Origin: Vulcaniibacterium tengchongense
GTDB lineage: Bacteria; Pseudomonadota; Gammaproteobacteria; Xanthomonadales; Xanthomonadaceae
Direction: 5' to 3'
NCBI RefSeq assembly: GCF_003814555.1
Contig: NZ_RKQN01000002.1
Coordinates: 744,001 to 808,000 of the forward strand
DNA: 64,000 nucleotides
Shown: piece by piece, positions 50,971 through 60,454 of the stretch
Layout: the number at the start of each line of letters is the position of its first letter
Position numbering within the stretch: the stretch's first letter is position 1
Position numbers and translations under genes: made by a program
The notes under the pieces: generated by a model
The model's input: the letters and a program-made list of their open reading frames with translations, nothing else
The model's database searches: none
What the model was told of the DNA's origin: nothing

Positions 50971-51468
50971 CTAAGCGGCGCCGGTAGCGAGCGCGGCCAT
51001 CGCCTCCGGCGTCCAGGTGCACACGCCCTTTTCGCGCACGCCGGCGCCGAGCCCGCGGTAGAAGCCGATCGCGCGCGCGTTGCCGGTCTCCACCGTCCAG
51101 CGCGCGAAGGCGTAGCCGCGCGCCAGGCACTCGCGCGCGACCGCCGCCATCAGGCGCTTGCCGACCCCGGCGCCGCGCGCCGCCGCCGCGACGAAGACGT
51201 CGTCGACGTGCAGGTACTCCCGGCCGTACCAGATCGAGTACTGGACCGTGTAGGACACGAAGCCGACCGGCGCGCCGTCGAGCTCGGCGATGAACGCGGC
51301 GAACGCCGGCCGCTCGCCGAAGCCGTGGCGTCGCAGCGTGTCCTCGTCGGTGCGGACGTAGGACGAGAAGCCCTCGTGCGCGGCCAGCGCGCGGATCAGC
51401 CCGAGCAGCGCCGCGGCGTCGTGGCGTCCGGCTTTCCTGACGATCGGGCCGGGTGCAGTCGCGATCAT
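50971..51468 (-). CDS. GNAT-family N-acetyltransferase
   Basis: A 165-residue acetyltransferase close to the spermidine/diamine N-acetyltransferase type: IVRKAGRHDAAALLGLIRALAAHE at the start, FAAFIAELDGAPVGFVSYTVQYSIWYG, the acetyl-CoA loop HVDDVFVAAAARGAGVGKRLM, and ETGNARAIGFYRGLGA. The substrate is not certain, but the YGREYLHVDD pattern is shared with SSAT-like proteins. Its ATG overlaps the stop codon of the upstream lipoprotein gene (ATGA). Confidence 0.9.
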   Translation of the reverse strand: MIATAPGPIVRKAGRHDAAALLGLIRALAAHEGFSSYVRTDEDTLRRHGFGERPAFAAFIAELDGAPVGFVSYTVQYSIWYGREYLHVDDVFVAAAARGAGVGKRLMAAVARECLARGYAFARWTVETGNARAIGFYRGLGAGVREKGVCTWTPEAMAALATGAA

Positions 51469-58104: not shown

Positions 58105-59061
58105 TCAGGCCGCGCCGGCGCGCGGCGGCCGCATCACGCTCAGCACCATGGTCGCGGCCAGGGTGGCGGCGACCACCGCCAGCGACCAGGCCACCGGGAT
58201 CTTGTACACGTCGACCAGCAGCATCTTGGCGCCGATGAACATCAGCACCAGCGCCAGGCCGTAGGGCAGCAGGTGGAAGCGGTCGGCGACCCCGGCGAGC
58301 AGGAAGAACATCGCGCGCAGGCCGAGCACCGCGAACACGTTCGAGGTCAGCACGATGAACGGGTCCTCGGTGATCGCGAAGATCGCCGGGATCGAGTCGA
58401 CCGCGAAGATCAGGTCGGTCACCGCGATCAGCACCATCACCACGAACAGCGGGGTGTACCAGCGCTTGCCGTCGATCCGCACCGCCAGCGCATGCCCGTG
58501 GTAGCCGGGCGTCAGCGGCAGGTGGTTGCGCATCCAGCGCAGCACCGGGTTCTTCTCCAGGTCGGGCGTCTTGCCCGCCGCCAGCAGCATCTTCACGCCG
58601 GTCAGCAGCAGGAACACGCCGAACACGTACAGCACCCAGTGGAACTTGGCCAGCAGCATGGCGCCGGCGAAGATCATCACCGCGCGCAGCACGATCGCGC
58701 CGAGCACGCCGATGATCAGCACCTTCTGGCGTTCGATCTCCGGCACCGCGAAGTAGCTGAACAGCAGCAGGAACACGAAGATGTTGTCGACCGCGAGCGA
58801 CTTCTCGACCAGGTAGCCGGTCAGGAACTCCAGGGCGATGCGCTGGCCTTCCTCCGCGCCGGAGTGCCCGGTCACCCACCACCACAGCCAGGCGTTGAAC
58901 GCCAGCGCCAGCGCGACCCAGCCGACGCTCCAGAACAGCGCCTCGCGAAACCGCACCTTGTGCGGTCCGCCGTGGCGCATCAGCAGCAGGTCGACGAGCA
59001 GCGCGGCGACCACCAGCACGCCGAACACGCTCCACAACAAAGGATTGGCGATGGTTTGCAT
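58105..59061 (-). CDS. TerC/Alx-family membrane protein
   Basis: A 318-residue polytopic protein of the TerC family, close to E. coli Alx. About nine membrane segments carry conserved acidic residues in EKSLAVDNIFVFLLLF and VTDLIFAVDSIPAIFAITEDPFIVLTSNVFA. Alx/MntP-type proteins have been linked to manganese export. A yybP-ykoY manganese riboswitch precedes the gene, so Mn2+ efflux is the best inference. GGGAG lies before the ATG at good spacing. Confidence 0.92.
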   Translation of the reverse strand: MQTIANPLLWSVFGVLVVAALLVDLLLMRHGGPHKVRFREALFWSVGWVALALAFNAWLWWWVTGHSGAEEGQRIALEFLTGYLVEKSLAVDNIFVFLLLFSYFAVPEIERQKVLIIGVLGAIVLRAVMIFAGAMLLAKFHWVLYVFGVFLLLTGVKMLLAAGKTPDLEKNPVLRWMRNHLPLTPGYHGHALAVRIDGKRWYTPLFVVMVLIAVTDLIFAVDSIPAIFAITEDPFIVLTSNVFAVLGLRAMFFLLAGVADRFHLLPYGLALVLMFIGAKMLLVDVYKIPVAWSLAVVAATLAATMVLSVMRPPRAGAA

Positions 59062-59113
59062 GAAAGCTCCCGGAATCGTGGCGTGGACCGCGGCCGGGCG
59101 CCGGAGAATGCGC

Positions 59114-59236
59114 GCACCTTCACCGCGGAAACGGTGAAGGTCTCGCTCGCAGGCCGATGGGCCTGCCGCGGCACCGGAGCCTGGGCTCGTAATGACGGCG
59201 TCCGCGAACGGGAGCTACTCCCCTTCGCCGCGAAGC
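59114..59236 (-). ncRNA. Manganese riboswitch (yybP-ykoY) upstream of the TerC/Alx gene
   Basis: Read on the minus strand from about 59230: GCGAAGGGGAGTAGC, then CCGTCATTACGAG, and finally GCGAGCGAGACCTTCACC. These are the hallmark blocks of the yybP-ykoY aptamer (GGGGAGUAG, GUCA-UACG and GAGACC) in the correct order, within about 100 bases. GAAGG and CCTTC can pair as the closing stem. ACCTTCACC can instead pair with GGTGAAGGT (59116-59141), a mutually exclusive hairpin. The element lies about 50 bases before the start codon of a TerC/Alx gene, the classic partner of this RNA. Confidence 0.85.
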
Positions 59237-59239
59237 ATA
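59234..59239 (-). promoter_or_regulatory. Putative -10 element of the TerC/Alx transcript
   Basis: On the minus strand TATGCT lies seven to eight bases before the start of the riboswitch aptamer, so transcription would begin near 59227, directly before the first aptamer stem. The -35 region is poor. Confidence 0.4.
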
Positions 59240-59272
59240 CCCGATCCGCGGCGGGCGCCGCGCGGGCGCCGG

Positions 59273-59278
59273 TACAAT
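59273..59278 (+). promoter_or_regulatory. Putative -10 element just upstream of the RlmI-like gene
   Basis: TACAAT (59273-59278) lies six bases before the ATG at 59285, so transcription would start at or within two bases of the start codon. No Shine-Dalgarno sequence precedes the ATG, consistent with a leaderless mRNA. No good -35 hexamer was found. Confidence 0.4.
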
Positions 59279-59284
59279 GCGTGG

Positions 59285-60454
59285 ATGACGCCCGAGTATC
59301 CCGCCGTACGCCTCAAGAACGCCTGGAAGTCCGCGCACCCGTGGATCTTCCAGCGCCTGGTCGACAAGCCCGCGCAGCGGCCGAAACCCGGCAGCGTGGT
59401 CGACGTGTACGGGGTCGACGGCGACTGGATCGGCCGCGGTTTCTACAACGGCCATTCGCGCATCGCCGTGCGCATCCTCGAGACCGACCCGGCGGTGCCG
59501 GTGGACGCGGCCTGGTTCGCGCGCAGGATCGCCGAGGCGGTGCGCCTGCGCCGCGAGATCCTCGGCCTGGACGAGGTCAGCGACGCCTGGCGCGTGGTGC
59601 ACAGCGAGGGCGACGGCCTCTCCGGCCTGGTCGTGGACCGCTACGGCGAGCTGCTGGTGGTGGAGTTCTTCAGCGCCGGCATGTTCCGCCACCGCGAATG
59701 GATCTACGACGCGCTGCGCGCGCAGTTCCCCGGCTGCCGCTTCTACAGCTTCGCCGACGAGCACGTGCAGAAGCAGGAGAGCTTCGACTTCCGCGCGCCC
59801 GAGCCGGTGCCGCCGGCGGTGATCACCGAGCACGGCATCAAGTTCCGCGCCGACCCGGCCGGCGCGCACAAGACCGGCTTCTTCGCCGACCAGCGCGAGA
59901 ACCGGCAATGGCTGAGCCGGTTCTGCGCGGGCAAGCGCGTGCTCGACTTGTGCTGCAACACCGGCGGTTTCGCCGTCTATGCCGCGGTGCGCGGCGCCAG
60001 CGAGGTGGTCGGCATCGACATCGACGCCGACGTGATCGAGATCGCCAAGGCCAACGCGCGGCTCAACCACGTGCGCCCGCGCTTCGTCCAGGCCGACATC
60101 TTCCCGTGGCTGCGCGACGCCGCGGCCAACGGCGAGCGCTTCGACGTGGTGATCCTCGACCCGGCCAAGATGACCCGCGACCGCGAGCAGGTGATCCCGG
60201 CCCTGAAGAAGTACCTCGACATGAACAAGCTGGCGCTCGCCACGGTGGCGCCGGGCGGGCTGTTCGCGACCTTCTCCTGCACCGGCCTGGTCAGCGAGGA
60301 GCAGTTCCTCGACATGCTGCGCCGGGCCGCGTTCTACGCCGGGCGCACGGTGCAGGTCCTCAAGGTCGGCGGCGCCGGCCCCGACCATCCGTGGCTGGCG
60401 CAGGTGCCCGAGAGCCGCTATCTGAAGGCGGTGTTCTGCCGGGTGCTCGACTGA
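59285..60454 (+). CDS. RlmI-like 23S rRNA (cytosine-5) methyltransferase
   Basis: A 389-residue methyltransferase. Residues 1-75 form a PUA RNA-binding domain (YPAVRLKNAWKSAHPWIFQ, GSVVDVYGVDGDWIGRGFYN). The Rossmann domain shows motif I VLDLCCNTGGFAVYAA, GIDIDADVIEIAKANARLN and the motif IV DPAK segment VVILDPAKMTRDRE, then FATFSCTGLVSEEQF with the catalytic-type cysteine. It is close to RlmI/YccW, which methylates C1962 of 23S rRNA, but RlmI-type enzymes are numerous, so the target is unproven. The ATG at 59285 is chosen because homology starts there. Confidence 0.9.
   Translation: MTPEYPAVRLKNAWKSAHPWIFQRLVDKPAQRPKPGSVVDVYGVDGDWIGRGFYNGHSRIAVRILETDPAVPVDAAWFARRIAEAVRLRREILGLDEVSDAWRVVHSEGDGLSGLVVDRYGELLVVEFFSAGMFRHREWIYDALRAQFPGCRFYSFADEHVQKQESFDFRAPEPVPPAVITEHGIKFRADPAGAHKTGFFADQRENRQWLSRFCAGKRVLDLCCNTGGFAVYAAVRGASEVVGIDIDADVIEIAKANARLNHVRPRFVQADIFPWLRDAAANGERFDVVILDPAKMTRDREQVIPALKKYLDMNKLALATVAPGGLFATFSCTGLVSEEQFLDMLRRAAFYAGRTVQVLKVGGAGPDHPWLAQVPESRYLKAVFCRVLD

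Follow-up and report, generated by a model that had tools for sequence, protein, structure and literature searches.

The alx locus and its leader

The window analysed here, a stretch of 64,000 nucleotides from a contig of Vulcaniibacterium tengchongense (NZ_RKQN01000002.1), contains on its minus strand an alx/terC gene preceded by a structured leader (Table 1). The gene product is an Alx-type TerC protein, scoring 400.1 bits with TIGR03718 against a cut-off of 246.4, and 171.2 bits with PF03741 against a cut-off of 27.8, which bears out the TerC/Alx gene that an earlier note on this DNA had placed downstream of the leader. On the opposite side of the leader lies an rRNA-methyltransferase-like open reading frame on the plus strand (59192-60454), whose product has a best NCBIfam match of 269.4 bits, below that model's cut-off of 712; the position of its PUA-like domain, judged by eye, suggests that this gene starts near 59285. 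Because of this gene on the plus strand, the alx promoter and leader fall within a divergent intergenic stretch.

Orthologous loci were retrieved by a contig scan with the Alx protein and are titled almost exclusively as Lysobacteraceae; the best 80 of 238 orthologs together with the window constitute the 81 leaders discussed below. One locus (L060) lies on a contig titled Bacillus subtilis (JAHREJ010000062.1) while displaying a Stenotrophomonas-like alx locus, a label that probably reflects contamination or mislabelling. When the region from -22 to -10 was searched, the best -10 match began between -13 and -17 in all 81 leaders; the TATGCT of the window begins at -13, and the possible -10 element of the earlier note accordingly sits at the promoter position of the whole set. 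Of the 81 leaders, 68 have a TTGAC at a distance of 36-41 nt upstream of P1; the window has none. Transcription would be expected to start near 59227.

Table 1. Features of the alx gene and its leader in the window
Feature	Position	Strand	Basis or remark
alx/terC gene	58105..59061	-	318 aa; PF03741 171.2 bits, TIGR03718 400.1 bits
Probable Shine-Dalgarno GGGAG of alx	59067..59071	-	Position only
Switch hairpin CCTTCACC/GGTGAAGG, 8 bp, without T-run	59117..59140	-	59140-59133 pairs with 59124-59117
P1.1 3' strand CCTTC	59136..59140	-	Common to P1.1 and the competing hairpin
Very probable alx-type Mn2+ (yybP-ykoY) aptamer, three-way junction without P2	59136..59229	-	R1 92.3 bits; covariation
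GAGCGAGACC	59148-59139	-	Read in sequence
L1 3' side GAGA	59141..59144	-	Last three bases invariant in A1
P1.2 3' strand GAGC	59145..59148	-	Pairing and compensatory types
P4 hairpin	59149..59166	-	5/7 pairs changed on both sides
P3 with L3 and P3.2	59167..59206	-	P3 5/10, P3.2 2/4 pairs changed on both sides
GTCATTACG	59196-59188	-	Read in sequence
Predicted metal-sensing loop L3, TCATTAC	59189..59195	-	Invariant A at 59193; role of the A from accessible text of PMC6754395
P1.2 5' strand GCTC	59212..59215	-	Pairs with GAGC 59148-59145
GGGGAGTAG	59223-59215	-	Read in sequence
L1 5' side GGAGTA	59216..59221	-	Invariant in A1
P1.1 5' strand GAAGG	59222..59226	-	Pairs with 59140-59136; invariant in 35 sequences
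Probable -10 element TATGCT	59239-59234	-	Matches conserved promoter position of 81 leaders

Structure and conservation of the predicted aptamer

The three minus-strand motifs that the earlier note had recognized in the order of a yybP-ykoY aptamer were all located, spanning 59223-59139, and the window carries both the L1 GGGGAGUAG and the 3' GAGNNAGACC by which the Mn2+ (yybP-ykoY) riboswitch is recognized. The corresponding 5' motif GAAGGGGAGTA[GA]CTCC and 3' motif AGACCTTC[GA][CT]C each occur exactly once in all 81 leaders. Between them, L3 forms a 7-nt one-sided internal loop separating P3 from P3.2. Its sequence in the window is UCAUUAC, and 22 of the 81 leaders have UCAAUUC. All 81 match TCANNNC, and since the search pattern demanded only the TC and left the third base free, the A at this position (81/81 leaders, and 133 of 137 distinct members in a wider set) was not imposed; the other four of the 137 read TCGTCAT, where the pattern had slipped by three bases. 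In the published structures L3 is ACAUACU in Xanthomonas oryzae and UCAAUUC in Lactococcus lactis, its third residue being the invariant A that contacts Mn2+ (accessible text of PMC6754395).

Thinning the 81 leaders at 90% identity left an alignment of 35 sequences (A1), in which 94.1% of cells in the aptamer helices are paired. Shuffled alignments reach 86.1%, and versions of the structure slid along the alignment no more than 43.6%, the slid controls being at a disadvantage because the tested structure was drawn from the window. Both sides have changed in 13 of the 30 pairs (shuffles: 8.9), with a covariation score of 0.309 versus 0.169; the number of further pair types, a weak measure among the five, is 34 versus 30.4, with 28 of 500 shuffles as high. 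The two-sided changes are distributed over P1.2, P3, P3.2 and P4 (Table 1). P1.2 is fully paired in 132 of the 137 distinct members, in types that include GCTC/GAGC, ACTC/GAGT, GCCC/GGGC, ACTT/AAGT, GCTT/AAGC, GTCC/GGAC and ATCC/GGAT. P1.1 is uninformative with respect to covariation because it is invariant across A1. Unaided RNAalifold prediction on A1 recovered P1.2, P3, P3.2, P4 and the competing hairpin described below, P1.1 being the helix that it did not predict, and bare folding of the window aptamer yielded another structure.

The L1 region of the window (59204-59228, minus strand) can also form a long local hairpin, GCGAA-G-GGGAG/CUCCC-G-UUCGC, which in folding models would sequester L1 and P1.1 ahead of aptamer folding. 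The GGGAG/CTCCC portion was considered as a conserved structure and rejected, as it loses a pair in 6 of the 137 members. In these six, whose P1.2 strands are GCCC, GTCC or ATCC, P1.2 remains paired and is thus the better-supported constraint.

The distance from L1 to L3 is 24-29 nt in 134 of the 137 distinct members, leaving no room for P2; inspection by eye showed that two of the three outliers (L094, L095) have an insert and that the third (L092) is a slip of the pattern. Neither a P2 helix nor a four-way junction was found in the window. We do not take P2 as a defining feature, because the Escherichia coli alx leader is likewise devoid of it.

An alx-type subgroup of the yybP-ykoY family

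The riboswitch of the E. coli alx leader is also known as PRE, and the founding studies of the family reportedly comprise one on alx and one on the L. lactis structure. At the gathering level, an Rfam scan detected nothing in the window; relaxing the settings brings up an RF00080 alignment over 59235-59149, at 15.1 bits where 45 are required, so that, formally, the Rfam search which the earlier note had proposed as its check goes against the assignment. Twenty loci scanned at the gathering level gave nothing either: 18 came from the 80 orthologous alx loci (themselves the best 80 of 238) and two, L001 and L003, from the window's own genome. The miss is uninformative as a refutation, because the alx and mntP leaders of E. 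coli K-12, both reported to respond to Mn, also fall below the RF00080 cut-off, and Rfam was for this reason dropped as the sole judge.

We instead built a covariance model, R1, from 34 orthologous leaders with both the window and E. coli left out. The window element scores 92.3 bits with R1 (E 1.1e-21) and that of the E. coli alx leader 54.6 bits (E 8.3e-12), the E-values of models of this type being rough; R1 finds no match in the E. coli mntP leader. With a model that excluded the window returning such a value, the element is far above chance, and since neither the window nor the E. coli alx leader contributed to the model, the two are shown to be homologous, which upholds the yybP-ykoY identity claimed by the earlier note. 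The minus-strand segment 59229-59136 is hence very probably an aptamer of the alx-type yybP-ykoY (Mn2+) class, as judged from sequence and alignment. A second, weak R1 match in the window (51159-51228, minus strand; 17.3 bits, E 0.051) has no 3' AGACC motif and is probably due to chance.

The window and the E. coli alx leader share L1, the L3 sequence UCAUUAC, P1.1, P1.2, P3, P4, the absence of P2, the alx gene, and a competing hairpin directly past the aptamer. The E. coli version is distinguished by a long P4 and, unlike the window, by an intrinsic-terminator-like hairpin and a 22-codon open reading frame after the hairpin arm. In that leader (L085, 2374-2590) an ATG follows the arm GGCGAGG, and the 22-codon frame runs through the terminator-like hairpin until its stop codon overlaps the alx start; no mention of this frame was found in the accessible text of PMC9603457. 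With the RF00080 type the window shares the L1 GGGGAGUAG, the 7-nt one-sided L3 with its invariant A, the order of P1, P3 and P4, and a metal-export gene downstream, and differs in the absence of P2 and in falling short of the cut-off. The crystal structures described in the accessible portion of PMC11087558 are four-way junctions with P2. The X. oryzae yebN riboswitch, of which there is a crystal structure, shares its bacterial family and ligand class with the window element, yet has a four-way junction, the L3 sequence ACAUACU and a different gene, the L3 of the window being closer to the L. lactis type (PMC6754395, as far as its text was accessible).

Distribution and partner genes

R1 matched 8 of 369 genomes in a sample of the class and 95 of 149 Lysobacteraceae genomes, at 100 places, in a sample of the family, both scans being run with stricter filters under which weak matches can be lost. 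Over the same 149 genomes RF00080 matched 121, 37 of them above its cut-off, at 127 places counted at E 0.01 or better. The two sets of places overlap in only four instances, none of which lies above the RF00080 cut-off, and both kinds are present together in 81 of the 149 genomes. Partner genes were classed from roughly 1.5 kb of sequence following each place: alx is present at 82 of the 100 R1 places and another TerC gene at 14, two more have a zinc-ribbon gene (PF13453) together with TerC, and at the last two a zinc-ribbon gene was seen but no TerC. Four R1 places outside the family are followed by alx (one) or TerC (one, and two more that the script left unclassed and that were assigned by eye). 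Among the 127 RF00080 places, the ten with the highest scores have GDT1 (six) or mntP (four) as partner, with no TerC match near any of these ten. As the partner genes differ in this manner, the two subtypes appear, on that sample, to split the Mn-export genes between them.

The genome of V. tengchongense itself has a second Mn2+ riboswitch, of the RF00080 subtype (L001, 1459-1582, minus strand; RF00080 40 bits), with an L3 read by eye as ACACACU, which precedes a gene of the GDT1/TMEM165 family (PF01169, 148 bits); R1 gives it a non-significant 12.8 bits (E 0.76).

At four loci (L091, L166, L134 and L157) an alx-type riboswitch stands before a small zinc-ribbon (PF13453) gene; a TerC gene follows the zinc-ribbon gene in L091 and L166 only. 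Relatives of the zinc-ribbon protein also occur in viral contigs (10 loci, L202-L211).

The switch hairpin

The switch hairpin adjoins the aptamer, its 5' arm using the 3' strand of P1.1 and its 3' arm repeating the P1.1 5' strand GAAGG. P1.1 and this 8-bp hairpin thereby account for the two mutually exclusive stems with a common CCTTC described in the earlier note, and at the sequence level the P1 3' strand has a second pairing partner. The competing hairpin was recognized by pattern in 79 of the 81 leaders (the best 80 of 238 orthologs and the window), and by direct reading in the other two (L011, L032); in the wider set, the pattern recognized no arm in 10 of 183 leaders. In A1, 97.5% of its cells are paired as compared to 97.1% in shuffles, and the sole double change is the window's own A-U in place of G-C. 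As P1.1 is invariant and the competing hairpin hardly varies, the switch itself receives almost no covariation support.

For the segment 59139-59113 the folding energy is -13.7 kcal/mol (z -4.12), and in forced folding the ensemble with the hairpin reaches -102.6 kcal/mol versus -89.7 kcal/mol with P1.1. Bare folding thus favours the hairpin by a wide margin, for which reason the choice between the two is probably kinetic. The exchange of P1.1 for the 8-bp hairpin appears to be the best-supported switching mechanism that the leader sequences suggest.

Proposed mechanism and output of the switch

We regard it as highly probable that the alx leader is a cis-acting Mn2+ ON riboswitch homologous to that of E. 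coli alx, with an output that is probably translational and possibly includes a Rho component; that the window RNA binds Mn2+, and at which level it exerts control, we infer. Under this proposal, Mn2+ would bind between L1 and L3 via A59193 and lock the aptamer, whereupon P1.1 (GAAGG/CCTTC) would hold, the hairpin would be blocked and Alx produced. When Mn2+ is lacking, GAAGG would be displaced by the GGTGAAGG arm as it emerges, the hairpin would form and expression would stay low. The choice between hairpin and P1.1 would probably be made kinetically and be locked by Mn2+ binding. The output is the least certain step: for this gene the switch would probably act on translation, perhaps with Rho-dependent termination in the leader when it is not translated, and not through an intrinsic terminator.

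In the window some 55 nt separate the hairpin arm from the alx ATG, and the hairpin therefore does not directly cover the start. Folding into forced ON and OFF states gave no clear answer as a readout of output: the accessibility of the Shine-Dalgarno sequence hardly differs in the window (0.27 vs 0.24), the method is equally blind for E. coli alx (0.38 vs 0.42), and among 82 leaders, comprising the best 80 of 238 orthologs, the Shine-Dalgarno is more open by >0.1 in the ON state in 16 and in the OFF state in two. In a few leaders examined by eye, base pairs between the hairpin arm and the region of the start codon were not conserved. At four loci (L155, L164, L184 and L196, the last with a weaker stem than the others) the GAAGG arm of the hairpin is itself situated 7-9 nt before the ATG of a TerC-family gene, in the Shine-Dalgarno position, which points to translational ON control there. 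For the window, too, translation with a possible Rho component is the output that we favour.

Start codons beyond the arm were scanned in 186 sequences, repeats included, of which 183 were matched (E. coli mntP, L018 and L191 being the others). Within 2-11 nt past the arm, an ATG is present in eight of these 183 leaders, a GTG or TTG in 13 and none in 152, the arm being unrecognized in the remaining 10. The window has no ATG, GTG or TTG in this interval, and a leader open reading frame was accordingly rejected for it. Behind the hairpin arm of the L092 riboswitch, at about 1500, an 8-codon open reading frame enters the 5' arm of a structure resembling an intrinsic terminator.

A possible, if less probable, alternative for the same aptamer is that Rho- or pause-dependent termination in a C-rich spacer constitutes the main output, translation being secondary. 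The E. coli mntP riboswitch combines translational control with Rho-dependent termination (accessible text of PMC11647493), and the spacer from arm to ATG has a median C/G ratio of 1.51; in 54 of 81 leaders (best 80 of 238) the ratio is higher than the 90th percentile for random windows drawn from those loci. The spacer of the window itself is only mildly C-rich (C/G 1.27, 80th percentile) and, at 56 nt, short, and a rut site is not provable by sequence alone.

That alkaline pH should be the physiological signal as much as Mn2+ seems to us unlikely. In E. coli, both Mn and alkaline pH activate the alx reporter, and the alx and mntP reporters alike answer the two signals, most strongly together (PMC9603457, in its accessible part); the conserved metal loop nevertheless speaks for Mn2+ having remained a ligand.

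On a more speculative note, and with little confidence, we consider that the alx-type switch might be a ribosome-landing switch, in which the GAAGG that invades P1.1 mimics a Shine-Dalgarno sequence with roles varying from member to member. If this were true, the arm would be the gene's own ribosome site in L155, L164, L184 and perhaps L196, would serve a short leader open reading frame leading into the terminator region in E. coli alx and L092, and may be a stand-by site in the window. Mn2+ would then expose a ribosome site in the leader, and translational, terminator and Rho outputs would follow from occupancy of the leader.

Intrinsic transcription termination as the output of the same aptamer is very improbable. 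E. coli alx and several leaders of the Lysobacter family do have a T-run hairpin between aptamer and gene, and a loose criterion of hairpin plus T-run is passed by 35 of 82 leaders (the window, E. coli and the best 80 of 238 orthologs); the window is not among these 35, no intrinsic terminator being found in it by this criterion, and no T-run follows its switch hairpin, in agreement with the doubt that the earlier note had raised on this point. The Rho, pH and intrinsic-termination alternatives concern output or signal alone and are compatible with the identity of the aptamer.

Least probable of all, to the point of being nearly negligible, is the reading that the repeat serves some regulator as its DNA operator or that the RNA is a decayed remnant. 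CCTTCACC-N8-GGTGAAGG is a perfect inverted repeat, but helices outside the repeat covary, the unpaired L1 and L3 are conserved, the leader is homologous to that of E. coli alx, and the window's hairpin bears a compensatory A-U pair.

Implications for manganese regulation in Lysobacteraceae

The mechanistic class and the partnership with alx are already known from E. coli (accessible text of PMC9603457). What appears to be new, and is modest, is a P2-less alx subtype that is widespread in Lysobacteraceae and overlooked by the current Rfam model; no paper on it was found in the open-access literature. A Stenotrophomonas study on Mn names a yybP-ykoY riboswitch at mntP, 'alx' and 'TerC' being absent from its main text as accessible (PMC13217887), and a Vibrio paper used RegPrecise for predicting such riboswitches (accessible text of PMC13274385), a resource that may list some Lysobacteraceae members.

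A group of Mn2+ riboswitches present in 95 of the 149 sampled Lysobacteraceae genomes escapes the current Rfam model, and because the model overlooks this group, the Mn regulons of Lysobacteraceae (Xanthomonas, Stenotrophomonas, Lysobacter) are likely to be under-annotated. The Lysobacteraceae members also represent natural variants for comparing modes of output.
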